Assembly: GCA_019246795.1 (NCBI GenBank) | Contig: JAFAPY010000053.1 | Span: 1-41,305 of the forward strand | DNA: 41,305 nt | Direction: 5' to 3' | Source of the DNA: Streptosporangiaceae bacterium | GTDB taxonomy: Bacteria > Actinomycetota > Actinomycetes > Streptosporangiales > Streptosporangiaceae | In this document: piece by piece, positions 1 through 17,778 of the stretch | Numbering within the stretch: position 1 is the first letter of the stretch | Layout: the number at the start of each line of letters is the position of its first letter | The notes under the pieces: generated by a model | Told to the model about the DNA's origin: nothing | Seen by the model: the letters and a program-made list of their open reading frames with translations, nothing else | Database searches by the model: none | Made by a program: the position numbers and the translations under genes

Positions 1-204
1 CTGGTGGCGGCGATGACGGTGGGCTGTTTCGGCGTGACCGGCATGGCCGCCCGGGCCTTGCTGGGTCAGACGCTGCCCGCACTGGCCGCGGCGGTCACAC
101 TCGGGGCGGCTGTCTACGCGGCTGCCTTGTACCTCGCCCGGAACCGGCTGGAGCTTACCGGGATCTACTCAGCGTTGCGCCTGAGGCCGCCCTGGCGCGG
201 TTAA
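1..204 (+). CDS. C-terminal fragment of a polytopic membrane protein (polysaccharide flippase/MurJ-like), truncated by window edge
   Basis: Open from window start; two hydrophobic helices (ALLGQTLPALAAAVTLGAAVYAAALYLA) and a basic tail, next to EPS glycosyltransferases. Confidence 0.45.
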   Translation: MVAAMTVGCFGVTGMAARALLGQTLPALAAAVTLGAAVYAAALYLARNRLELTGIYSALRLRPPWRG

Positions 205-1548
205 CCGCTTGCGCGCCGTATGAGACCCGCAAGCCTCGTCGTAGACGCGCAGCGTCCGATCGACGATGACGTCCCAGTTGTAGCGCGATTCCACCCGGCG
301 CCGGCCGCCGGCGCCGAGCTGGGACCGAAGCCCGGGATCGCTCGCCAGCCGCATCATCGCCTGCGCCAGCCCCTGCACCATGGCCGCACGCGAGGATACA
401 TCGACGAGAACCCCGGTGGTCTCATCGACGGAGGTGAGGTGGCCGCCCCACGCTGTAGCGATCACCGGACGTGCGGATGCCATCGCCTCGAGGACTGCGA
501 CGCCGCCCGCCTCTTGCAAACTCGGCGACACGTAGACGTCGCAGGCCTGAATGCGCCGCGCACAGTCCTCCGGCTTGAGCCAGCCAACAAAGGAGATGCC
601 CGCGGCGCAACCGGTGCGGTAGGCCTGGTCAGCCAGGCTAGCTCGCTCGGGCCCATCGCCCACGATCTCGAGAAGCGCCGGAACGCGCTCCCTTACCAGG
701 GCGAATGCGTCGAGGAGTATGTCGACTCCCTTCAGGCTGACAAGGCGGCCGACAAACAGGAAGCGGGTCACGCGGCCGCCTGTGGCGGCATCGGTTCGGG
801 CCGGAGGCTCATCGTGCGCCGGCCACGAACCGAGTACCACCCCGATGTCGGACAGCTCAGTCACCCTCTTCCGGGCGGACTCGGGCAGCAGCAACCGCGT
901 CCGGTCGTTGGCCACCAAGACGACGTCCGCTTCCGCCCGTCCGCGCATGAGGCCGTTCAGAGCCGATGCCACCACCGGGCGGGCTGCCTTGGTCAGTGCG
1001 TACAGGCGAGAGTCGCGGTTCCTGAACGACGGCGGCAGCTCCATACCGCCGTTGAGCGGTCCCATGACTACCGGCGCGCCGAGTCGGGTCAGCGGCGAGG
1101 GAATGACAGGCGACACGCTGATGGGCTGATGCACAACCTCGATCGCGAGTTCGCGGACGAGCCTGCGGGCCACCGGGACCATCGCGACCTGCCGCTCGAT
1201 CTGAGTCACCGACCAGGCGAGGGTCCGCAGCCCAGTAGGAAGCCTCTTTCCGAGTGTGTAGACCGGGCCGAACCCGCGCGTGCCGCCGGCGAAGATCACT
1301 CGCTCGAATTCAGCAGCCGGCAAGAGCTGCATAAGTTCCGCCCGGGCACTGACGTGCGTCAACAGCCAGGTCTGGACACCTCGCGCTCGCAGCCTTCCGA
1401 ACAGCCGGAGCGGGATCGAGCCTTCCCCGCCGCTGCGCTCTGATGCATAGTGCGCGACGATGAGCACCCTGCGTCCAGGCCGGCGGTCATCGCCAGCGCT
1501 GTCCGGCCCGCCTTGCGGCTTCACTGCCCGCTCAGGTCCTGTGACCAT
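169..1548 (-). CDS. Glycosyltransferase family 4 (GT-B) protein
   Basis: 459 aa; RVLIVAHYASERSGGEGSIPLRLF N-term, FLFVGRLVSLKGVDILLDAF and VSPSLQEAGGVAVLEAMASARPVIAT GT4 motifs. Confidence 0.9.
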   Translation of the reverse strand: MVTGPERAVKPQGGPDSAGDDRRPGRRVLIVAHYASERSGGEGSIPLRLFGRLRARGVQTWLLTHVSARAELMQLLPAAEFERVIFAGGTRGFGPVYTLGKRLPTGLRTLAWSVTQIERQVAMVPVARRLVRELAIEVVHQPISVSPVIPSPLTRLGAPVVMGPLNGGMELPPSFRNRDSRLYALTKAARPVVASALNGLMRGRAEADVVLVANDRTRLLLPESARKRVTELSDIGVVLGSWPAHDEPPARTDAATGGRVTRFLFVGRLVSLKGVDILLDAFALVRERVPALLEIVGDGPERASLADQAYRTGCAAGISFVGWLKPEDCARRIQACDVYVSPSLQEAGGVAVLEAMASARPVIATAWGGHLTSVDETTGVLVDVSSRAAMVQGLAQAMMRLASDPGLRSQLGAGGRRRVESRYNWDVIVDRTLRVYDEACGSHTARKRLTAPGRPQAQR

Positions 1549-1810
1549 GGTGGTTCGCCGGCAGCAGGACCCGCGTCCTACGTTGACAGGCGCCCCGGCT
1601 GCCCGGCCTCAAGAAGCAGCTCGTCCGCGGTCTAATAATCATCGTCACCGGAGAACGCTATCAAGACTTCATAGCAAGCGGCTATGCCTGGCGTTGCGGC
1701 GCTGGCAGCCGCGGCACCGCGTGTTGACCACCATCCCCGTCGCCTCCGATGGGGCAGGTTCACGTGACAGATCTTAAATCAGAGAGGTAACATGTCGTGT
1801 ACCACATCCG

Positions 1811-2770
1811 GTGTTAGGTACAACGTACATGCCCACTATTCGTCAAAAGACTGTCGCCGCGATCGCCCGTCGGTACCCGCTCTATAGCGGCTGCGGTCGT
1901 CTGGCAAACCACCCGGTTCTGCAGCGTATAGCTGGGCCGAGCACTGAAATCGCCTGGGCCAGAGTCCCTGGTGGATATTGGGCGCCTTCTCCGTTGTCGG
2001 ATCATGTGGGGAGGGCCATCTTCTACTGCGGAGAGCTAGACCGGAAGGTTACGTGGGTTTGTTCGCGGCTTGTGCGACCGGGTGACTGCGTTCTGGATAT
2101 CGGCGCGAATCTTGGTTTGGTAAGTCTGACACTGTCGGCGCTGGTCGGGTCGGCGGGTAACGTGCATGCGTTCGAGCCGAATCCCCAGATGCAAGCGCTT
2201 ATCGAAGAGGCGATCGGACGCAATAAGCTGACCAACATTAAATTGTATCGATGTGCGCTGGGAGCGCAAGATGGCGAACTAAGGCTTTCTGTACCACGGA
2301 GGAACGCGGGGGCCGCGTCCTTCGTCGCGGCTCGCCGAAACCCAGACAGTACTGAGGTGCTAGTACCGGTTCGGACACTTTCCTCAGTAATGGCGGATCA
2401 GAGCGTTGGTCATATCCGGCTGGTTAAGATGGACGTAGAAGGTTTCGAGCCCGAGGTGCTAGCTGGCGCAATCGAATTTTTTTCGCGGGAGCCTCCGGAT
2501 GCGCTCATATTCGAGTTGAACGAAGCTGCTGGCGGCTTGGGTCGTCACCCGACCATGCTAGCGCTTTCCAGTCTCGGGTATGGTTTTTTGGGTCTGCCGC
2601 GAAGGCTGACGCACATGCGCGCGTTCCGATTCGATCCTCGAGACCTTAGCATGACGCCAAGAAGTCATGATTTCGTTGCCGCGCGAGTCGGGCGGATTTA
2701 TGATGAGGTGGCAGAGCGGCTACGCGCCGGGAAACCTCAAGATATCCTCGATGACCGTCAGGTCCATTAA
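1811..2770 (+). CDS. FkbM family methyltransferase
   Basis: GDCVLDIGANLGLVSLTLSALVGSAGNVHAFEPNPQ SAM motif and VKMDVEGFEPEVLAGA; GTG start at 1811, alternative ATG at 1829. Confidence 0.88.
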   Translation: MLGTTYMPTIRQKTVAAIARRYPLYSGCGRLANHPVLQRIAGPSTEIAWARVPGGYWAPSPLSDHVGRAIFYCGELDRKVTWVCSRLVRPGDCVLDIGANLGLVSLTLSALVGSAGNVHAFEPNPQMQALIEEAIGRNKLTNIKLYRCALGAQDGELRLSVPRRNAGAASFVAARRNPDSTEVLVPVRTLSSVMADQSVGHIRLVKMDVEGFEPEVLAGAIEFFSREPPDALIFELNEAAGGLGRHPTMLALSSLGYGFLGLPRRLTHMRAFRFDPRDLSMTPRSHDFVAARVGRIYDEVAERLRAGKPQDILDDRQVH

Positions 2771-3805
2771 CCGACAGGCTGAGCGCGCGACTGCCTTCCG
2801 CCACGCCTCAATCGAGGGAGCGTCGTTCAGATCTCCCCAGCGAGCTCCCGGCGGGTCGAACAAGATTCCAAACAGGGCGCCGCTGCTTTGGAGGTAGTTG
2901 GCGACCTCGGTCAGCCATTCAGGCCTGCCCGACTGGGTGGCGAGGGCGAACTCGGCGAAACCGAACGGCAAGCCCACGCTCCTCGATGCAGCCACCGCTG
3001 GACCCATGAAGTCGGCCGGTGGCGTCGCCTGCGGATTCTGGTCATGCACACTCCCCGCCGGGTAGGCGTCCCACCCAAGGGTAGTGATCACGCCAGCAGA
3101 AGGCAGGAAGTTCTTCCAGTTGATGCCAGAATCAGGGGTTAGATCCCACGCCATCATGATCAAAGTGGATCTGAGTTCGGAATTATGCGCGGCATCCGCG
3201 AGCGCCGCTATGTGGGCCCAGGCTGCCTTATACGCGGTTAGCGTGAAATAGTCTCCGGTGATGAACGGCTCGGGCTCATGGTAGTAAGAATAGAATATAG
3301 GGTAACCGGTCGGCGCGGTATCGAAGAAATGCGATAGCGCAACATCATCCACGCCGGACAAGATTATCGAGGGCGGCACTCTGAAGCTCACGACGACCGC
3401 CGACTTGTTAATCCCCTGGACACCAGTTGTCCACAAGGCAGGATCAGGCAAGCCATTGTAGTAGACCCGGAGAATGGGCAGGTGCCCGAACTCCGAGGTT
3501 ACGTTTGCGAGTCGGGCTGGGTTACCCGCATCGACGCCGAGCAGGGTATGAGCGGGAGAGCCGGCACCGCGCCCCTGCACGCCGCATGTCGTCGCAGGAT
3601 TGGCCACGGGGGACGCGCCGTCGACGGCAGTGCGAATGACCGCCGCCGCCAACAGGGCAACAAGTCCTGCGGTGACGATGAACCATGGAGATCGTCGCAT
3701 TCTCTTGCGCTTAGGCGAAGTGCTAGCCCCGGCATCTGCTCCGGCAGACTGTGTTGAATGTCGCGCGTGTCCCGGGAGAGGCGATTCATACCTGCTGTGA
3801 GGCAT
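2720..3805 (-). CDS. Membrane-anchored GH26-like glycoside hydrolase family protein
   Basis: N-terminal TM anchor (WFIVTAGLVALLAAAVI); FYSYYHEPEP and PFGFAEFAL resemble GH26 acid/base and nucleophile segments; RBS GGAGGAGC before ATG. Confidence 0.6.
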   Translation of the reverse strand: MPHSRYESPLPGHARHSTQSAGADAGASTSPKRKRMRRSPWFIVTAGLVALLAAAVIRTAVDGASPVANPATTCGVQGRGAGSPAHTLLGVDAGNPARLANVTSEFGHLPILRVYYNGLPDPALWTTGVQGINKSAVVVSFRVPPSIILSGVDDVALSHFFDTAPTGYPIFYSYYHEPEPFITGDYFTLTAYKAAWAHIAALADAAHNSELRSTLIMMAWDLTPDSGINWKNFLPSAGVITTLGWDAYPAGSVHDQNPQATPPADFMGPAVAASRSVGLPFGFAEFALATQSGRPEWLTEVANYLQSSGALFGILFDPPGARWGDLNDAPSIEAWRKAVARSACRLMDLTVIEDILRFPGA

Positions 3806-4074
3806 GAAGCTCCTCCCTCCGCGCCTGCCAGGCTAGCTGACTGGTTCGGGCCGTAGCAACCGTGCCGGAGCAGGCGGACACGGCCACATCTCACCCTTCG
3901 CGCGAACCTGCCCTGAGCATGTCGCCATGAACGGCATGCGCACAGCGGCCAAGGGTAGGCCGATCAGGGAGATTCTCACTTCCCTTGGACGAAACGCGCT
4001 TGTTGCGGGTTCCGGGCGTTCCCGGCATGCCCGGCCCGTATGCGAACGGGTTGTTCCGTTCTTCTTGGTGGGCC

Positions 4075-4351
4075 ATCGACATCTTCACCGAGGCCTGGCC
4101 GACGGCGTGCGGCTGAACTTCGTGTCTGCGACGAGGTGTACGGTTCGTGCGCCCAGCTGCGCGAGTTCTGCGAGGATCATGGCCAGGCTTACGTATTGCG
4201 GGTCCCCTTCCAGCCTCCGGCTGACCGCTGCTCCGCACGCCGCACGGGAACCGCCGCACGATCGCCGGTGTTCCCAGACCAGGCCCTGTCACGCTGGTAT
4301 CACCCGCGGACAAGGCTCGACCGCGATGCCGCAACCGTCCAGGTCAGATAG
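4075..4351 (+). pseudogene. IS701-type transposase remnant, frameshifted
   Basis: LADGVRLNFVSA in one frame continues as DEVYGSCAQLREFCEDHGQAYVLRVP in another; matches the IS701-like 'ADEVYG..LR..CE..G..YVL.V' core with an apparent 1-nt deletion. Confidence 0.65.
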
Positions 4352-4380
4352 CGAATGGCTGCTGCCGTACTACGGACGCG

Positions 4381-4913
4381 GTGGTTTGTCCAATGATGGT
4401 AAATTCGTGGGTTATTCATGACAACTTACCGATCGGGCCAAGCGTCGATAAGATGTCCGCGGCGCTCCCGCGACGCGGTCTCACCTGTTCAGTCTCGGCA
4501 ACTGAGAGTATGCGAAGGGGGGACGTGAAGAGTCTCGGGCTGCGCACCGCAGGGGCCCAGCCGTTGCTCCGCGACAAGATCAGCATCGGCATCGCATCTG
4601 ACGCAACCCCGGCTCAGCTGGCGGATAACCTGCTGCGCGGATGCCTACACCTGCTGTTTTGTCGGGTTCCAGCCATCGCCGTCGGCGATGGCTGCCGGTC
4701 GTACCTCAAGCCAGTGCTGCACGTCTTCAACATGAACGGGACACCGCTTGGTTACAGCAAGGCAGCGAACTTCGGCGAGTGCTCCGGCTCGTGGATGACC
4801 AGATCACGGCCGTCGCCTCGCGGAATCTGCGTCTCCGCCAAGACCAATATTTCGATGCTCGTCCGGCGATCAGGGCAGCCGTCCCTAGCGGTGACGTGAT
4901 GGAGGATAACTGA
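4381..4913 (+). pseudogene. Degraded phosphotransferase-like protein typical of actinobacterial EPS loci
   Basis: LLRDKISIGI...KPVLHVFNMNGTPLGYSKA resembles 'KPVLQL..DGT.LGFAKVG'; similarity stops mid-frame without a domain C-terminus. Confidence 0.35.
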
Positions 4914-4915
4914 CC

Positions 4916-6727
4916 ATGAGTGTGCGACAGCCTCCGGTTAGTGATGATTTCGCGGCCGAGCCGCGTTCGGTCGACTTGCGCGATTACTGGTCGATACTTC
5001 GTCGCCGGTGGCGGCTGATCGCGGCAATAGCACTGGTCGGCGGCCTTGCCGGGGTCGGATACTCCGTCGCACGCGGGCCTTCGTATACGGCGACTGCCGA
5101 GGTGGTGGTTCAGCCCGTGACCGAAGGGCCGCTGAACCAGCAGCCGGCCCAGGCCGGCTCCCAGGTCAACATGAGCACCGAGCAGGCAATTGCTCAGTCA
5201 GAGCCGGTAGTCCAGCAGGCCGCCGGCATACTTAGGGTTCCCGCGAGCAAACTAGAGTCGGTCGCAGCCAGCAAGCTCTCGGTCACGGTTCCTGCAAGCA
5301 CGCTGACCATCTCAAACGTGCTGCAGATCAGCTGGCAGGCCAAAAGCAGGCGAGCCGCCCAGCAGGGAGCCGACGCATTCGCCAGCGCGTACCTGTCCTA
5401 TCGACACCATGAGCTGGCAGGCCAGATCTCCGTCCTGGAAGGCACGCTGCAGCAGCAGATTAACTCGCTACGCGCCCAGATGGAGACGCAATCCGCGCGG
5501 CTGGCCGGAACTGTCTCGGCATCAACCCGCCAGATCCTGACCATCCAGCTGAATCAGCTGAGCAGTCAGGCCAGCACCGCCGAGGCCCAGCTGAACGCGC
5601 TGCCCACCTACAACGATTCGGGCGGCACCATGATCCCGGCCGTCATGCCGGGCAAGCCATCAGGCCTCGGCCGCTCCGTGCTTGCTGGCATCGGACTCAT
5701 CCTCGGCCTGCTGGTCGGCTTGGCGGTTGCTTTTGCCCGGGACTTCTTCGATGACCGTGTGCGCGATGCGACGCAACTGGAGCAGTGCTTGGGCGCTCCA
5801 CTGCTCGCGATCATGCCCTCGGCCAAGGCTGTCGCCGCCAGCGACCAACGCCAGCACAGGCTCCAGTCTGCGGCCGTGGCGATCGCCGCCGACCCGGATA
5901 GCAGTGCCGCTGACGCAGCACGCATTCTCCGCGAAACTGTCATGGCGGTGTCGTCGCGGAGGGATTTGCGCGCGCTCATGGTAATCGCGGCGGACACCAG
6001 CATATCTGCTGGCCTGATCGTGGCCGAACTTGGCGTGGCGCTGGCCCAGTCGGGCAAGCGAGTCTTGCTGGTGGCCTCCGATACGCAAGGCTCTGTGCTG
6101 CCGCAGATCTTCGACGTTGGCGAGAACGCCGGGCTGAAGGAATTGCTCATCCGAGGCGGCGATCCCGAAGCATTCACCCAGTCACCCAAGCAGACCGCAG
6201 GTGTCGTGCTGCCGACGGAGGTTGCAGATCGGCTGACAGTGCTGCCGAGCGGCCAGGGACCGGCGTATCCGCTCTCGGCCCTGGACTGCGACAGAATGGC
6301 CAATGCGCTGCACAAGCTGCGTGAAGCGCATGACCTCATGCTGCTGGACGCGCAGTCAGGAGCGGGCGCGGACATCTTTGCGCTTGCTTCTCACGTTGAT
6401 GGCGTCATCGTGCTGGCTCGGGAGGCGCACACCAGGAGCAAGGAACTGATGGCGCTGCGTCATCACCTTGGCCAGGTGGATGCCCCCGTCGTGGGCGGGG
6501 TCCTGGTCAGGAAGGTGCGTTCAGGCCGCAGCCAGCACACGTCGGTCCAGCCCGCGCCAGCTGGCGACCGTCCCGCTGTAGCGGCGCCAGAGCAAGCACC
6601 GCAGCCAGAGCCAGCATCAATAACGACCCTGCTGGAGCCCATGGAAGACGCCCCGACAATCACATTTCCCGTCCCGTCCGCCCTCAAAGGAACGGGCAGC
6701 AGCCGCCCCAGTGACCAGGGCGCTTGA
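4916..6727 (+). CDS. Wzz/Wzc-like polysaccharide chain-length/BY-kinase family protein with degenerate kinase domain
   Basis: LRDYWSILRRRWRLIAAIALVGGLAGVGYS N-TM, second TM at SVLAGIGLILGLLVGLAVAFARDFFDDRV, cytosolic AELGVALAQSGKRVLLVASD fold but no P-loop GK[ST]. Confidence 0.85.
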   Translation: MSVRQPPVSDDFAAEPRSVDLRDYWSILRRRWRLIAAIALVGGLAGVGYSVARGPSYTATAEVVVQPVTEGPLNQQPAQAGSQVNMSTEQAIAQSEPVVQQAAGILRVPASKLESVAASKLSVTVPASTLTISNVLQISWQAKSRRAAQQGADAFASAYLSYRHHELAGQISVLEGTLQQQINSLRAQMETQSARLAGTVSASTRQILTIQLNQLSSQASTAEAQLNALPTYNDSGGTMIPAVMPGKPSGLGRSVLAGIGLILGLLVGLAVAFARDFFDDRVRDATQLEQCLGAPLLAIMPSAKAVAASDQRQHRLQSAAVAIAADPDSSAADAARILRETVMAVSSRRDLRALMVIAADTSISAGLIVAELGVALAQSGKRVLLVASDTQGSVLPQIFDVGENAGLKELLIRGGDPEAFTQSPKQTAGVVLPTEVADRLTVLPSGQGPAYPLSALDCDRMANALHKLREAHDLMLLDAQSGAGADIFALASHVDGVIVLAREAHTRSKELMALRHHLGQVDAPVVGGVLVRKVRSGRSQHTSVQPAPAGDRPAVAAPEQAPQPEPASITTLLEPMEDAPTITFPVPSALKGTGSSRPSDQGA

Positions 6728-6842
6728 GTCAAGCCATCTAGTACCGCTAGCTACAGACGGCAGCCCGGCCGGCATGGCCCAGCGGGAGCTGCGTGGAACC
6801 CACAATAGGCATTTTCTCCCATGACGAAGAGGAGACAACCCC

Positions 6843-7748
6843 ATGATCCGCGAGGGTAGAGGGCCAGTCAGCCGGGCGGTGCGCGAGTCCACCAAGCGCA
6901 TCCTGCGCGGTTACGGTGAAGCCACTGCCGGCCTGCGGCGCGGGCCAGACTTCGTGATCATCGGGGCCAAGCGGGGCGGCAGTACATCACTGTACAACTA
7001 TATGCTCGAGCATCCGAATATCGTCCCGCTGTTCCCGGGCCGCCAGCACATCAAGGGACCGCATTACTACGATACCCAGTACGCGCGCGGCCTGGCCTGG
7101 TACCGGTCGTATTTCCCGATCGAAGTCTGCGGCCGTCACCTGGCGCGCCCGAAGCTGAGGCCAGCCCTATGCGGCGAAGCGAGCCCGTACTACCTGTTCC
7201 ATCCGCTCGCCGCGGAGCGACTGGCACGCGACCATCCCCACGTGCGCATCATCGCCGTCCTGCGCGATCCGGTGGAGCGGGCGTATTCGCACTTCAAGGA
7301 ACGGACCCACCACCGCGGCGAGAGCCTGAGCTTCGAAGACGCGCTCGACGCCGAGGCGGACCGGCTGCGCGGCGAGGAAGAGCGCATCATCGCGGAGCCC
7401 GGCTACCTGAGCGCGGAACATGAGAACCACTCCTACCTGGCGCAGGGGCGGTATCTCGACATGCTTCCGCGCTGGTTCAAGTTCTTCCCTCGCGAGCAGA
7501 TCCACATCGCCGTGAGCGAGGAGTTCTACGCGGACCCCGACCGCCACGTCAACGAGGTGTGGACGTTCCTCGGCCTGCCGCCATGCCGGCTGGCAAGCCA
7601 GGTGCGGTACAACTACATGCCTGCTCCAAAGATGGCGCCGGAGACGCGCCGCCGTCTGCAGCAGTCCGTGGCCGAGCATAACCGTGATCTTGCCGACCTG
7701 CTCGGGCGCCCGCTGCCCTGGCCAGCGCCAGCGGCATCGGTCCGGTGA
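6843..7748 (+). CDS. Sulfotransferase (PAPS-dependent) domain protein
   Basis: FVIIGAKRGGSTSLYNYMLEHPNI (5'-PSB) and VLRDPVERAYSHFKERTHH (3'-PB). Confidence 0.92.
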   Translation: MIREGRGPVSRAVRESTKRILRGYGEATAGLRRGPDFVIIGAKRGGSTSLYNYMLEHPNIVPLFPGRQHIKGPHYYDTQYARGLAWYRSYFPIEVCGRHLARPKLRPALCGEASPYYLFHPLAAERLARDHPHVRIIAVLRDPVERAYSHFKERTHHRGESLSFEDALDAEADRLRGEEERIIAEPGYLSAEHENHSYLAQGRYLDMLPRWFKFFPREQIHIAVSEEFYADPDRHVNEVWTFLGLPPCRLASQVRYNYMPAPKMAPETRRRLQQSVAEHNRDLADLLGRPLPWPAPAASVR

Positions 7749-8671
7749 CCGAATCCGCGCCGACTGGCGCCTGGCCCGATGTGAGCGTGATCGTCGCCAC
7801 CAGAGGGCGACCGCAGCTACTGAGCCGGGCCGTGGCAAGCATCCTCGGCCAGTCCTATCCGGGTCCGCTGGAGTGCGTGCTGGTCTTCGACCAAAACGAG
7901 CCTTCGGACGTACCGGTCGAGGCGCGGGCCGGGCGGCGGCTGCAGGTACTGACAAATACCCGCGCTCCCGGCCTGGCAGGTGCAAGGAACACCGGGATAG
8001 CGGCCACCGACGGCCCCCTGATCGCGTTCTGCGATGACGACGACGCATGGCAGCCCAGCAAGCTCGCGTTGCAGGTTGATTTGCTTGAGCGGTCGGCAGC
8101 CGGCTTCATCGCGTGCGGCGTCCGCATTCACCATGGGGGCCACACGGCCGACAGGCTTCCACCAGCGGAGGTCAGCTTCGGCGAGTTGGTGCGGGACCGG
8201 GTGACGGCGCTGCACCCGTCCACGTTCCTCATACGCCGGTCGGCCCTGACCGCGATAGGTCTGGTGGACGAGGAGATCCCCGGCTCCTACGGCGAGGACT
8301 ACGACCTGCTGCTGCGGGCCGCCAGGAACGGCCGCATCCTCTCAGTGCGGCAGCCGCTGGTGGACGTGTTCTGGCACGAGCAGTCATATTTCGCCGAGCG
8401 GTGGCAGACGATCACCGACGCGCTGCGCTTCCTGCTGGGCAAGCACCCCGAGCTCAGCGCGGATCCGGTCGGCCGGGCCCGGATCGACGGCCAGATCGCA
8501 TTTGCAGAGGCAGCCCTGGCTCGCCGCCTAGCCGCCTGTCGGTCGAGTTTGAACGCCTTGCGTGGCAATCCCCGTGAGCGGCGAGCATACCTGGCACTCG
8601 CAGTGGCCGCCGGCGTGATTCCCGCGAAATCAGTCATCCGCGCCGCAAATCGCCGAGGCCACGGAATATGA
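7745..8671 (+). CDS. Glycosyltransferase family 2
   Basis: VSVIVATRGRPQLLSRAVASILGQSYPGPLE, FCDDDDAW DXD motif; GTGA overlap with upstream stop. Confidence 0.92.
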   Translation: MTESAPTGAWPDVSVIVATRGRPQLLSRAVASILGQSYPGPLECVLVFDQNEPSDVPVEARAGRRLQVLTNTRAPGLAGARNTGIAATDGPLIAFCDDDDAWQPSKLALQVDLLERSAAGFIACGVRIHHGGHTADRLPPAEVSFGELVRDRVTALHPSTFLIRRSALTAIGLVDEEIPGSYGEDYDLLLRAARNGRILSVRQPLVDVFWHEQSYFAERWQTITDALRFLLGKHPELSADPVGRARIDGQIAFAEAALARRLAACRSSLNALRGNPRERRAYLALAVAAGVIPAKSVIRAANRRGHGI

Positions 8672-8710
8672 GCAACACCAGCTAGCAACAAGAAGATGGC
8701 AGGTAGGATC

Positions 8711-9358
8711 ATGGTCAAGATTCCGAAGTCAGCAGCAGCCATGCTGATGCTCATGGGGCTCGTAGCAGCCTGCAGTTCCTCCCACCCGGCCGCGTCGGGC
8801 ACTGCGTCGAGCACCTCCGCAACAGGGTCCGCGGAAGCCGCGTCGAGCGGCACGGCGACGGCGGCTGCCCCAGGCTCGGCAGGCGGCAGCACGCACAAGA
8901 CGCCAAAGAAGGACATCATTGCCGGCCTGATCAGCTTTAACGGCAAAATCAGCGTTTCCGGCGGGCAGGACCTGAATATGCCATTCACCGCTTTTCCCGG
9001 CGTCACCAGCCCGAAGGATTCCTGCGCGCGCATTGCTGCGGTCGGTACGCCTGCCGGTAAAGGACGCTCCCAGCAGTTCCAGATTCCCAGCCCGCCACAA
9101 GGCGGCAACGTGACGGTCACAGCCGAAATATTGCCTTACCGAGGTCCCGGCGCGTACCAGAAAGCCTCCCTTGTTGCCGCCGGCCCTAGCGTGGTCATCG
9201 GGAACGCCTCGTATAACCTGCTCGCGGCGGGCGCCACTGTGACAGTAACGTTCCGGGCTGACGGTTCGGGCGAGCTTACCTTCGCCGGCGCCGCAGCCGC
9301 CGACTCAGGGCAGCCCGCTCTGTCCGGCACGATCCAGTGGACCTGCTCCGTGCAGTAG
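8711..9358 (+). CDS. Secreted lipoprotein, unknown function
   Basis: Signal peptide plus lipobox MLMGLVAACSSS; Ser/Ala/Thr linker; upstream in-frame start possible at 8696. Confidence 0.7.
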   Translation: MVKIPKSAAAMLMLMGLVAACSSSHPAASGTASSTSATGSAEAASSGTATAAAPGSAGGSTHKTPKKDIIAGLISFNGKISVSGGQDLNMPFTAFPGVTSPKDSCARIAAVGTPAGKGRSQQFQIPSPPQGGNVTVTAEILPYRGPGAYQKASLVAAGPSVVIGNASYNLLAAGATVTVTFRADGSGELTFAGAAAADSGQPALSGTIQWTCSVQ

Positions 9359-9391
9359 CCGCGGATCAGCCGCGAGGCGCACGATCTCGGG

Positions 9392-10069
9392 CTAGGCAAG
9401 TTCACCCGGCCGGGTGCCTCCGGCCGCCCTGAGCAGCGAGCGGAGGATCAGCCACCCGAACAGCCATCCGCCGAGGATGTCTTCGGGCCAGTGCCGCCCC
9501 AGGTAAAGCCGTGAGCCGCCCTGGGCGGCGATCACCGTGAGCACGACGGACCACAGACCACGGCGTTCCGCTGGCAAGTTCCAGCGCTCGGCCAGCAGGT
9601 GGGCCAACAAGCCGAAGATGATGACCGTGCGGGCTGCGCCGCCTGAAGGGAAGTCCCCCGGCGGCCCCACCGAGTCCTCCTCCGGCGGCTTGCTGCCCTT
9701 CACCAGAATCTTCAGCACCTTCTGCAGGTAGACCTCGGCGGCCAGGCCGCCGGCGAGCAGCGGCAGCGGCCGCCAGTCCCGGCGCTCGTATGCCACGAGC
9801 CCGCCGACCAGCAGGGAGAACGGGACAAGCACCGGGTAGTCGCCCATGCCGGTGACCGCCTGCTCGAGACGCCGGGCAAGCCGTGGCGACCGGCGCGCGC
9901 GGACGTAGTCGTAAATCTCTCGCGACGGCCGGACTATCAGGTCTGTCTGAACGAGCCTACCGACGGCCCAGCTGATCAAGACTGTCGTCGTGCCGCCCGC
10001 GGCCAGCGCACCGGCCAGCCTTCCCGCGCGGCCGGGCCAGGCCGGCCCGGCATTGGTCGCTTTACGCAC
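9392..10069 (-). CDS. Phosphatase PAP2 family protein
   Basis: KILVKGSKPPEE, PSGGAARTVIIFG, RLYLGRHWPEDILGGWLFG acid-phosphatase signature; ORF extends to ATG at 10093 but GTG at 10069 avoids the divergent overlap. Confidence 0.85.
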   Translation of the reverse strand: MRKATNAGPAWPGRAGRLAGALAAGGTTTVLISWAVGRLVQTDLIVRPSREIYDYVRARRSPRLARRLEQAVTGMGDYPVLVPFSLLVGGLVAYERRDWRPLPLLAGGLAAEVYLQKVLKILVKGSKPPEEDSVGPPGDFPSGGAARTVIIFGLLAHLLAERWNLPAERRGLWSVVLTVIAAQGGSRLYLGRHWPEDILGGWLFGWLILRSLLRAAGGTRPGELA

Positions 10070-10091
10070 TGGATCACAATAATGTATTCGC

Positions 10092-10838
10092 ATGGCTGAG
10101 GAGCGGGACCTGCTCGACTCGTATTTCGCTGCTTCGGAAGACAGGCAGCGTCTGTTGCGGACGACGAAGCCGTCGGACGCCCGTGGACGCGTGCTGCTAA
10201 AGCCCCTGATTCCGGTGCGCTATCGCGGGACTGGCAGGGTAATTCTTACCGACCTTGTGCGGCCGCGTGAGCGGCGCAAGGCCCGCCTGGCCGCCGGCCA
10301 GCGTGAGGTCCGTCTGCATCTTGGCTGCGGCGGTGAGCCCAAGACCGGCTGGGTTAACATCGACCTGCTTGGCGATCCTGTCGACGTGGCCTGGAATCTG
10401 GCCAGCCCGCTGCCGTTCGACTCTGGGTCAGTTGCGGCGATCTTCCACGAGCATCTGCTCGAGCATCTGCCGCTGAGAGCCGGTGACGTCTTCATGCAGG
10501 AGTGCTACCGTGTGCTGGGTCCCGGCGGGATCCTGCGCGTCGGCGTTCCTGATGCCGGCAAGCTCATCAGGTCGTACGCGGGCGACCAGAGCTACCTGAA
10601 TGACCTGCATCCCGGCAGGCCCACCGCGCTCCTTGCGGTGCAGGAACTGTTCTACTGGCATCGCCACTGCGCCATGTTCGACGCCGAGACGCTGGGCCTT
10701 CTCTTCCGGGCAAGCGGATTCCCTGATCCGCGCCCGCGCGAGTTCGGTGATACCGATTTGGACCAGGCACCCGACACCGAGCACAGGCGGGCCGAGACGC
10801 TGTACATGGAAGCCCGCAAGCCAGCCAGCCGGAGCTGA
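10092..10838 (+). CDS. Class I SAM-dependent methyltransferase
   Basis: RLHLGCGGEPKTGWVNIDL, HEHLLEHLPL, ECYRVLGPGGILRVGVPD. Confidence 0.85.
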   Translation: MAEERDLLDSYFAASEDRQRLLRTTKPSDARGRVLLKPLIPVRYRGTGRVILTDLVRPRERRKARLAAGQREVRLHLGCGGEPKTGWVNIDLLGDPVDVAWNLASPLPFDSGSVAAIFHEHLLEHLPLRAGDVFMQECYRVLGPGGILRVGVPDAGKLIRSYAGDQSYLNDLHPGRPTALLAVQELFYWHRHCAMFDAETLGLLFRASGFPDPRPREFGDTDLDQAPDTEHRRAETLYMEARKPASRS

Positions 10839-11078
10839 GCCGCAGTCCCTACCTTCACGAGGGTGTGGCGCCGACGGTAAGGCACCCCTTCGGCTCGTTC
10901 GGCGGCAGCGCGTGACGGCTGCCTGCCGATCCGGACGCCGGATGGCCTTGGCTGAGGACCGGCGAGTGTGCCGCGAAGTTCAGCGGGGTCAGCCCCTCGT
11001 GCGCCGCCGGTGTCCTGAGAGATGCTGCCAGTGTGCCCGCGCCGAAGGCGCGGGCCGCGGACGCGGCAAGGAGGCGCC

Positions 11079-15365: not shown

Positions 15366-16814
15366 GTGGACAAGCTGCAGCGGTACCGGGACAAGCGCGA
15401 CCCGGCGCGCACGCCCGAACCGGTTCCCGCCGGGACCCCGCAGCCGGCGGCTCCGCAGCCGGCGCACAAGGACGGCCAGGCCCGGTCGTTCGTCATCCAG
15501 GAGCATCACGCCCGGCGGCTGCACTGGGATTTCCGGCTGGAACGCGACGGCGTGCTGGTGTCCTGGGCGCTCCCGAAGGGCGTGCCGTACGACCCGGCGG
15601 CCAACCACCTGGCGGTGCACACCGAGGATCACCCGCTGGAGTACGGCAGCTTCGAGGGGGTGATCCCCAAGGGCCAGTACGGGGCGGGCCAGGTCACCAT
15701 CTGGGACCGCGGCAGCTACGAGACGGTGAAGTGGGCGCCGGACGAGGTCAAGGTCGTCCTGCACGGGCGGCGGGTGACCGGGGGCTACGTGCTGTTCCAG
15801 ACGCACGGGAACCAGTGGATGATCCACCGGGAGCGCCAGCCGCTGCCCGCCGGGCTGCGGCCGATGTCCGCCGTGTCCAGGACCGCGATGCCGGGCCACG
15901 CCCAGGACTGGGCCCTGGAGATGAAGTGGGACGGCGTCCGGGCGCTGGCGTACGTGGAACGGGGCCGGGTCCGGCTGGCCTCGCGGACCGAGCGCGACAT
16001 CACCGCCACCTACCCGGAGCTGGCCGCCCTCGGCAAGGCCACCTCGCACAAGCAGCTGCTGCTGGACGGGGAGATCGTGGTGTTCGGCGAGGAGGGCTGG
16101 CCGAGCTTCGAGGCGCTGCAGCCGCGCATGCACGTCAGCTCGCCGTCCCAGGCGGTCATGCTCGCCGGGCAGAACCCGGTCACCTACCTGGCGTTCGACC
16201 TGCTGCAGCTGGACGGCAGGCCGCTGTTCGACCTGCCGTACCGCGAGCGTCGCGACCGGCTGGAGGAGCTGGGCCTGTCCGGGGCGTACTGGCAGGCCCC
16301 GCCGTCGTTTCCCGGTGAGGACTTCCGCTCCGTGCAGGCCGTCTCGGTCGCGCACGGCATGGAGGGCGTTGTCGCCAAGCGGCTGGACTCCAGGTACCTG
16401 CCCGGCGTCCGCAGCGACCAGTGGCTGAAGATCAAGAACTCCCACCGCCAGGAGGTCATCGTGGCCGGGTACAAGCCGGGGAAGGGCAACCGGACCGGGC
16501 AGGTGGGCTCGCTGCTGGTCGGGGTGCGCGATGCCTCGGGGCGGCTGTGTTACGGCGGGCACGTCGGGACCGGGTTCAGCGCCGAGACGCTGACAATGCT
16601 GGGGGACAAGCTCGCTCCGCTGCGCCGTGCCGGCTCGCCGTTCGACGAGCCGGTCCCGCCCGAGCATGCCCGCACCGCGGTGTGGGTACAGCCACGGCTG
16701 GTGATCGACGTGACCTTCGATCGGTGGACCAAGGCGGGCCGGATGCGGGCGCCGGTGTACAAGGGGCTGCGCGACGACATTGACCCCGCGGACGTGACCC
16801 GTGAGCCTTCCTGA
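15366..16814 (+). CDS. LigD-type ATP-dependent DNA ligase with N-terminal 3'-phosphoesterase domain (PE-LIG)
   Basis: EHHARRLHWDFRLERDG...EYGSFEGVIPKGQYGAG (PE); EMKWDGVRA ligase nucleotidyl-Lys motif; VAKRLDSRYLPG, WLKIKN. Confidence 0.95.
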   Translation: MDKLQRYRDKRDPARTPEPVPAGTPQPAAPQPAHKDGQARSFVIQEHHARRLHWDFRLERDGVLVSWALPKGVPYDPAANHLAVHTEDHPLEYGSFEGVIPKGQYGAGQVTIWDRGSYETVKWAPDEVKVVLHGRRVTGGYVLFQTHGNQWMIHRERQPLPAGLRPMSAVSRTAMPGHAQDWALEMKWDGVRALAYVERGRVRLASRTERDITATYPELAALGKATSHKQLLLDGEIVVFGEEGWPSFEALQPRMHVSSPSQAVMLAGQNPVTYLAFDLLQLDGRPLFDLPYRERRDRLEELGLSGAYWQAPPSFPGEDFRSVQAVSVAHGMEGVVAKRLDSRYLPGVRSDQWLKIKNSHRQEVIVAGYKPGKGNRTGQVGSLLVGVRDASGRLCYGGHVGTGFSAETLTMLGDKLAPLRRAGSPFDEPVPPEHARTAVWVQPRLVIDVTFDRWTKAGRMRAPVYKGLRDDIDPADVTREPS

Positions 16815-17778
16815 CAAGATCGCGGTGCGCGTCGACGGCCGGGCGCTGACGCTGACGAACCTGGCCAAGGTGCTCTACCCCGAGAACGGGTTCACCAAGG
16901 CGGAGGTGCTCGACTACTACCAGCGGGTGGCGCCGGTGCTGCTGCCGCACATCGCCGGCCGCCCGCTGACCCTGCGCCGTTACCCGGAGGGCGTGGACGG
17001 CGAGGCCTTCTACCAGAAGAACGTCAGCGAGTACCGGCCCGACTGGGTCCGCACCGCCCGGCTCAGCCCGGCAGGCTCGCGCTCCCGCGGCCGCGGCGCC
17101 GACGTGACCTACTTGGTGGTAGACGACCTGCCGTCGCTGATCTGGGCGGTCAACCTGGCCAGCCTGGAGCTGCACGTCCCGCAGTGGCGGCTGCCCGCCG
17201 TCCGTGAGCCGGACCTGCTGGTCTTCGACCTGGATCCGGGCGCCCCTGCCACGATCGTGGACTGCTGCCGGGTGGCGCTTGACCTGCGGCCGCTGCTGGA
17301 AGGCGAGGGCCTGACGCCGCTGGCCAAGACCTCGGGCGGGAAGGGGCTGCAGCTGTACGCGGCGATCTCCGGTGTCACCTCGGAGCAGGCCAGCCAGCAG
17401 GCCAAGCGCTTCGCCGAACTGCTGGAGCAGGCCCAGCCCCGGCGTGTGGTCTCCCGGATGACCAAGGTGCTGCGCACCGGGCGGGTGCTGATCGACTGGA
17501 GCCAGAACAACGGGTCGAAGACCACCGTGGCCCCGTACTCGCTGCGCGCCCGCAGCGCCCCGAGCGTGTCGACGCCGGTGACCTGGGACGAGGTGGCGGC
17601 CTGCCGCGCGCCGCAGGACCTGTTCTTCACCGCCGGCGACGTGCCGGACCGGGTGTCGCGGCACGGTGACCTGTTCGCGCCGCTGCTCGAACCGTCCGGC
17701 GCGGCGACTTCCGCTAGCCGCCGCGGCGCTCGCGCAGCAGCAGCAGGGCGTAGGCGGCAAGGGTCGAGTCGTCGGTGA
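16801..17778 (+). CDS. LigD-type NHEJ polymerase domain protein (POL)
   Basis: LTNLAKVLYPENGFTKAEVLDYY, LVFDLDPG metal-binding motif, KTSGGKGLQLYAAI; GTG start overlaps upstream ORF. Confidence 0.94.
   Translation: MSLPDKIAVRVDGRALTLTNLAKVLYPENGFTKAEVLDYYQRVAPVLLPHIAGRPLTLRRYPEGVDGEAFYQKNVSEYRPDWVRTARLSPAGSRSRGRGADVTYLVVDDLPSLIWAVNLASLELHVPQWRLPAVREPDLLVFDLDPGAPATIVDCCRVALDLRPLLEGEGLTPLAKTSGGKGLQLYAAISGVTSEQASQQAKRFAELLEQAQPRRVVSRMTKVLRTGRVLIDWSQNNGSKTTVAPYSLRARSAPSVSTPVTWDEVAACRAPQDLFFTAGDVPDRVSRHGDLFAPLLEPSGAATSASRRGARAAAAGRRRQGSSRR

Follow-up and report, generated by a model that had tools for sequence, protein, structure and literature searches.

Introduction

What becomes of a polysaccharide co-polymerase (PCP) when its built-in kinase is apparently dead? 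In the current model of Wzc-type export, cycles of tyrosine phosphorylation drive the assembly and disassembly of an octamer. A 41,305-nucleotide contig of a Streptosporangiaceae bacterium (JAFAPY010000053.1; this whole stretch is referred to below as the window) encodes a Wzc-like protein for which an earlier note, made from the sequence, claimed loss of the kinase motifs and suggested either a pseudokinase scaffold or a regulator of chain length, possibly acting with a separate kinase. The source is described as a soil-type actinobacterium, and its genome is a 4.28 Mb draft in 424 contigs that is 92% complete. The locus raises the questions of whether the loss is genuine, whether it is peculiar to this protein, and what the remaining domain may do.

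Architecture of the Protein

The Wzz-type transmembrane and periplasmic architecture proposed in the earlier note is borne out by a match to the Wzz family PF02706 that exceeds the family cut-off (E=2.2e-12) and by hydropathy peaks at about residues 33 and 255, corresponding to two transmembrane (TM) segments (Table 1). Likewise, the cytosolic part aligns with BY-kinases as claimed, resembling the EpsG (E=2.2e-19) and Wzc (E=1.8e-15) models in profile searches and matching the solved structures of Wzc, CapB and Etk (E-values from 2.4e-14 for PDB Wzc to 1e-7) as well as those of BceF and CapAB, while its TIGR01007 score of 58.7 bits lies under the cut-off of 108.05. An AlphaFold model from a two-sequence alignment is too poor to read (pLDDT 45.5), though full-length Wzc provides its top Foldseek matches. 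The PCP and pseudokinase parts are fused in a single open reading frame, rather than occurring as a stand-alone pseudokinase and a kinase-less PCP.

Table 1. Features of the polysaccharide locus and of the PCP within it, in window coordinates. Identities refer to the genomes of the nearest orthologue (G003) and of a second orthologue (G085).
Feature	Position	Strand	Basis or remark
Wzy_C polymerase/ligase-like C-terminal end, cut by contig edge	1..201	+	76% identical to end of L041:3160-6408 (PF04932)
GT4 glycosyltransferase of cluster	169..1548	-	82% identical in G003
FkbM-family methyltransferase	1811-2770	+	no counterpart at syntenic place in G003
Possible glycoside hydrolase (GH26-like HEPE motif, no Pfam match)	2720..3805	-	75% in G003
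PCP-2a polysaccharide co-polymerase with BY-pseudokinase domain (603 aa)	4916..6727	+	ATG 4916, stop 6727
Wzz N-terminal domain including TM1 (about residues 33-52)	4967..5218	+	PF02706, hydropathy
TM2 (about residues 249-278)	5660..5749	+	hydropathy; G260, G264 and G268 unchanged across 14 homologues
EX2RX2R-type interface motif (residues 333-339, DAARILR), retained	5912..5932	+	motif role from PMC3795738
Degenerate Walker A (about residues 357-369, IAADTSISAGLIV)	5984..6022	+	alignments with intact relatives
Degenerate Walker A' (residues 384-393, LLVASDTQGS)	6065..6094	+	alignments with intact relatives
Degenerate Walker B (residues 476-487, LLDAQSGAGADI); Asp478 kept	6341..6376	+	alignments with intact relatives
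Sulfotransferase	6843..7748	+	70% in G003, 62% in G085
GT2 glycosyltransferase	7745..8671	+	68% in G003, 61% in G085
Possible lipoprotein (LVAAC lipobox)	8696-9358	+	no family match; no tblastn match in G003
PAP2-family phosphatase	9392..10093	-	63% in G003
Methyltransferase	10092..10838	+	85% in G003

Loss of the Kinase Motifs

The motifs were compared by aligning the window protein with intact GEGKT relatives from the same order. At Walker A, SPAAAEGKTST of the relatives is replaced by AADTSISAGLI, so that the core residues G, K and T become S, A and G, respectively, and the reported absence of the P-loop Lys, with AADTSISAGL in place of GEGKT, is real. Walker A' (LVSCDLRRP in relatives, LVASDTQGS here) is mostly lost, as the LLVASDTQ reading had implied, its second Asp being retained and its Arg gone. 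The description of Walker B as LLDAQSGAG needs qualifying: the motif (LVDSPPVLPVTD in relatives, LLDAQSGAGAD here) has lost its PP pair but is not wholly gone, for Asp478 is still there. No Tyr occurs beyond residue 451, which leaves the protein with no C-terminal Tyr tail, in agreement with the missing Tyr cluster noted earlier. A search for an intact P-loop elsewhere found none in the protein, where GK pairs stand only at residues 246 and 380 and neither belongs to a P-loop, and no GKT in either alternative frame at the Walker A position. As judged from its sequence, the protein is confirmed as Wzc-like, with a built-in tyrosine-kinase part that lacks the usual ATP-binding residues.

The retained Asp478 and single Walker A' Asp would be the natural basis for a domain in which a non-canonical pocket still permits nucleotide binding or phosphorylation. 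This reading is highly improbable: all three P-loop residues G, K and T have been exchanged, the window protein and its two orthologues share no conserved substitute Lys, and there is no Tyr tail to phosphorylate; the domain would be expected not to bind ATP.

A Shared and Probably Old Loss

The nearest homologue, 49% identical, is encoded in a Streptosporangiaceae MAG (G003, contig C111 = JAFAZE010000021.1) and carries CADASISPS at Walker A, AANIRGS at Walker A' with the Arg kept, and an intact LDSPP at Walker B. A second orthologue (G085, 42% identical), which lies across two contigs with a 107-base overlap, reads SADPSVSAG, GADLRGS and VEAPP at the same positions. Close homologues with GK[ST] would have pointed to a local sequencing problem; the two orthologues are instead also without the Lys, which is the loss common to all three proteins, whereas the decay of Walker A' and B is uneven and strongest in the window protein. 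That a sequencing or assembly error conceals an intact P-loop might be suspected of a draft in 424 contigs, but the probability of this is negligible: the possibility is ruled out by the two independent orthologues, by the other frames at the site, which are closed or without GKT, and by the synteny with G003 that supports the contig.

Collecting orthologues more widely, as the earlier note had advised, places the protein, there viewed as a single odd case, in a large actinomycete clade of Lys-less forms. Among 80 aligned homologues, which are mostly top matches from the order and hence not a random sample, the Walker A position holds GK[ST] in 10, GR[ST] in 3 and other sequence in 44, and most of the domain is missing in 23. 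An ML tree was built from the domain-bearing rows and 22 intact BY-kinases taken from other parts of the phylum, with the Walker columns excluded and the very long-branched L010, L026 and L090 omitted. The 42 degenerate and 3 K-to-R rows, which make up all 45 Lys-less ones, fall together in one clade with support of 100/98, nested inside canonical BY-kinases. The alternative topology, in which the window's clade groups with intact Streptosporangiales BY-kinases and would represent a separate loss, is rejected (AU p=0.004). Given this support and this rejection, a single loss is the simplest reading, and the loss of the P-loop Lys is probably old and shared, with the caveat that attraction among fast-evolving rows may affect the grouping. 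The same loss in a large, old group of relatives marks it as a real biological variant.

A class-wide search with P0001 returned distant homologues only, and none of the five newly aligned has GK[ST]. A genome of the same genus (G001) holds a different, very divergent PCP (L090) with GKS in place. Four PCP homologues (L074, L076, L093 and L158) have GR[ST] for GK[ST], with the Walker motifs otherwise fairly well kept, and are possibly an intermediate stage of the loss. At most of another set of loci, mostly of genus code g82 (L053, L055, L057-L062, L064-L066 and L069), two PCP genes lie close together: the product of one has about 550-760 aa and a degenerate kinase domain, whereas that of the other has about 430-480 aa, with the domain mostly or wholly missing or eroded; a hetero-oligomeric pair is possible.

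Constraint on the Dead Domain

In ten close pairs of degenerate rows (neither K nor R), dN/dS of the domain is 0.04-0.25, vs. 0.15-0.57 for the N-terminal/periplasmic part, and is below that of the rest of the same proteins in 10/10 pairs, which are not all independent. Within such close pairs of the wider clade, purifying selection acts more strongly on the dead domain than on the remaining parts of the protein. The stronger constraint is not seen in a more distant pair (L011/L017) and in one K-to-R pair. When the window protein is compared with its nearest orthologue, dS exceeds 1 and both halves give a dN/dS of about 0.37, so no strong selection is evident on the domain of the window protein itself.

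The EX2RX2R motif forms half of the BY-kinase octamer interface and matters for polysaccharide synthesis (PMC3795738). It is kept by all three members of the window's clade, as D-x2-R-x2-R in the window protein and E-x2-R-x2-R in the other two, and by 19 of 41 other degenerate rows, mostly in one subclade, while another subclade has lost it (QxxHEL). An ATP site lost together with an interface kept is, we infer, the pattern expected of a scaffold.

Against a scaffold stands the possibility that the domain is simply in decay, the cytosolic part drifting after loss of the kinase while only the Wzz part works, with the domain-less members as the end point. Such members exist (23/80 rows), and their loss of the domain altogether implies that it can be dispensable; Walker A' and B have decayed differently among the three orthologues, which also counts against the scaffold reading; for the window pair, the domain shows no lower dN/dS than the remainder of the protein; and the PCP gene, at 48% identity, has diverged faster than the genes around it (63-85%). 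Decay is nevertheless unlikely in view of the ten close pairs of the wider clade, in which the dead domain is the more constrained part, and of the window's own clade, in which the domain is nearly full length (93-98% of aligned columns) and EX2RX2R is retained.

The Question of a Separate Partner Kinase

The separate kinase envisaged in the earlier note would place the protein in mixed oligomers with an active BY-kinase, or have it tune one allosterically, a role of the kind suggested for CapB1 (PMC3795738), and three genomes (G085, G017 and G036) do hold an intact BY-kinase together with a degenerate or K-to-R PCP. The search for a second intact BY-kinase that the note had advised found none in the 92%-complete window assembly, where no other TIGR01007 match exceeds 31 bits and the five best others are ParA-like ATPases and one BagA; nor was there another Wzz gene above cut-off in this genome, or a BY-kinase above cut-off in G003. 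An intact BY-kinase may lie in the missing 8% of the window genome. Across the order, a PCP match at E<=1e-15 is present in 263/347 genomes and a BY-kinase above the TIGR01007 cut-off in 94/346, which leaves at least 169 genomes with a PCP match and without such a kinase, a figure that is approximate because the number of candidates scored was not the same in both searches. Partnership with a separate kinase is not supported by the window assembly or G003, and we regard it as very unlikely; the pseudokinase scaffold of the earlier note is well supported by the clade-wide loss, the selection in close pairs and the kept interface motif.

The Surrounding Gene Cluster

The probable product of the cluster to which the PCP gene belongs is a sulfated exopolysaccharide assembled via the Wzx/Wzy pathway, as far as the gene content indicates. 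Gene order is conserved with G003, in which a Bac_transf sugar-phosphate transferase lies some 10 kb upstream of the PCP gene; the latter is about 48% identical between the two genomes, vs. 63-85% for its neighbours. In G085, the order is GH26, PCP, a Wzy_C-like gene just below the Pfam cut-off, sulfotransferase and GT2, and the adjoining GH26 is weakly resembled by the product of the possible glycoside hydrolase gene of the window. No Wzx was identified in the window cluster, and its Wzy is represented only by the contig-edge fragment. Elsewhere in the genome, contig C338 carries a GH26 gene, which gave no matches to the cluster regions.

Third-position GC is 0.69-0.83 in the polysaccharide genes (window 1-11000), against mostly 0.85-0.97 in the remainder (11000-41305), a low value typical of a variable surface-polysaccharide region. 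In that remainder, a LigD-type DNA ligase stands beside a LigD primase-polymerase on the forward strand (15366-17778), a bacterial NHEJ set.

Proposed Role and Known Relatives

The reading we favour, at a probability of roughly three in four, is that of a fused, phosphorylation-independent co-polymerase of PCP-2a type, whose BY-pseudokinase domain acts as an oligomerisation and docking scaffold within a Wzx/Wzy-type cluster with a sulfotransferase. The protein would probably set polymer length and assembly through a ring that surrounds the Wzy polymerase or sits next to it, and the exported polymer whose length is controlled is probably a sulfated sugar polymer. The dead domain would be a structural oligomerisation and docking module, taking the place of octamer assembly and disassembly driven by Tyr phosphorylation. 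Phosphorylation of the Tyr tail destabilises the Wzc octamer (PMC11986026); with neither an ATP site nor a Tyr tail, assembly and disassembly, if they occur here, would be governed by binding alone, as has been proposed for EcpK and HfsB (PMC12004946).

The protein shares with Wzc, Etk and CapAB the Wzz domain, the two TM segments, a cytosolic domain of ParA/BY-kinase fold, an EX2RX2R-type interface motif and a Wzx/Wzy-type cluster, but it differs from these active BY-kinases in lacking the P-loop Lys and the Tyr tail and in the degradation of its Walker A' and B motifs. A BY-kinase-like domain that serves a PCP-2 but has neither Walker motifs nor Tyr tail is found in EcpK/EpsV of Myxococcus and HfsB/HfsA of Caulobacter, which are pairs of separate proteins from Gram-negative bacteria, whereas the window protein is one fused polypeptide from an actinomycete (PMC12004946). 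Members of the PCP-2 BY-pseudokinase subfamily are defined by being required for polysaccharide synthesis and by stabilising the PCP; the window protein has their BY-kinase-like domain devoid of Walker motifs and Tyr tail.

BY-pseudokinases serving PCP-2 are already established, fused ones being known from proteobacteria (PMC12004946), and the window protein belongs to a known kind. Fused forms are named from S. meliloti (SMc01795), Brucella ceti, Mesorhizobium and Vibrio vulnificus (PMC12004946, after Cuthbertson et al.); these proteobacterial proteins combine PCP and pseudokinase as in the window, a likeness drawn from their description. A search of open-licence papers returned no report of actinomycete PCP pseudokinases, and within that literature the old actinomycete clade and its relatives without the domain appear to be undescribed.

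By analogy of gene content, the closest studied actinomycete parallel appears to be the wps-1 cluster of Actinoplanes missouriensis, which encodes Wzx, Wzy, Wzz, GT2, GH26 and two sulfotransferases, and in which deletion of the Wzz-type WpsK yields squashed, deformed sporangia (PMC13390465). WpsK is, like the window protein, an actinomycete Wzz-type protein, and it is encoded in a Wzx/Wzy cluster with sulfotransferases, GT2 and a GH26. The overlap with wps-1 is partial: Wzz, GT2 and a sulfotransferase are present in the window, its Wzy is a contig-edge end, its GH26-like gene is a weak match and a Wzx was not seen.

Implications

We tentatively propose a history, itself quite open to doubt, in which a large, old actinomycete clade lost the P-loop Lys once, selection preserved the dead domain for its part in oligomerisation, and several lineages later discarded it. 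If this is true, phosphorylation-free control of chain length would be a standard mode in these Gram-positives, including for sporangium-type polymers. The occurrence of the domain as intact, dead or absent in related bacteria provides natural separations of function, and the A. missouriensis wpsK deletion would offer a genetic entry point, should WpsK prove to be of the pseudokinase type. A clade that keeps the machine without phosphorylation would show that the phosphorylation cycle is not essential to Wzc-type export.
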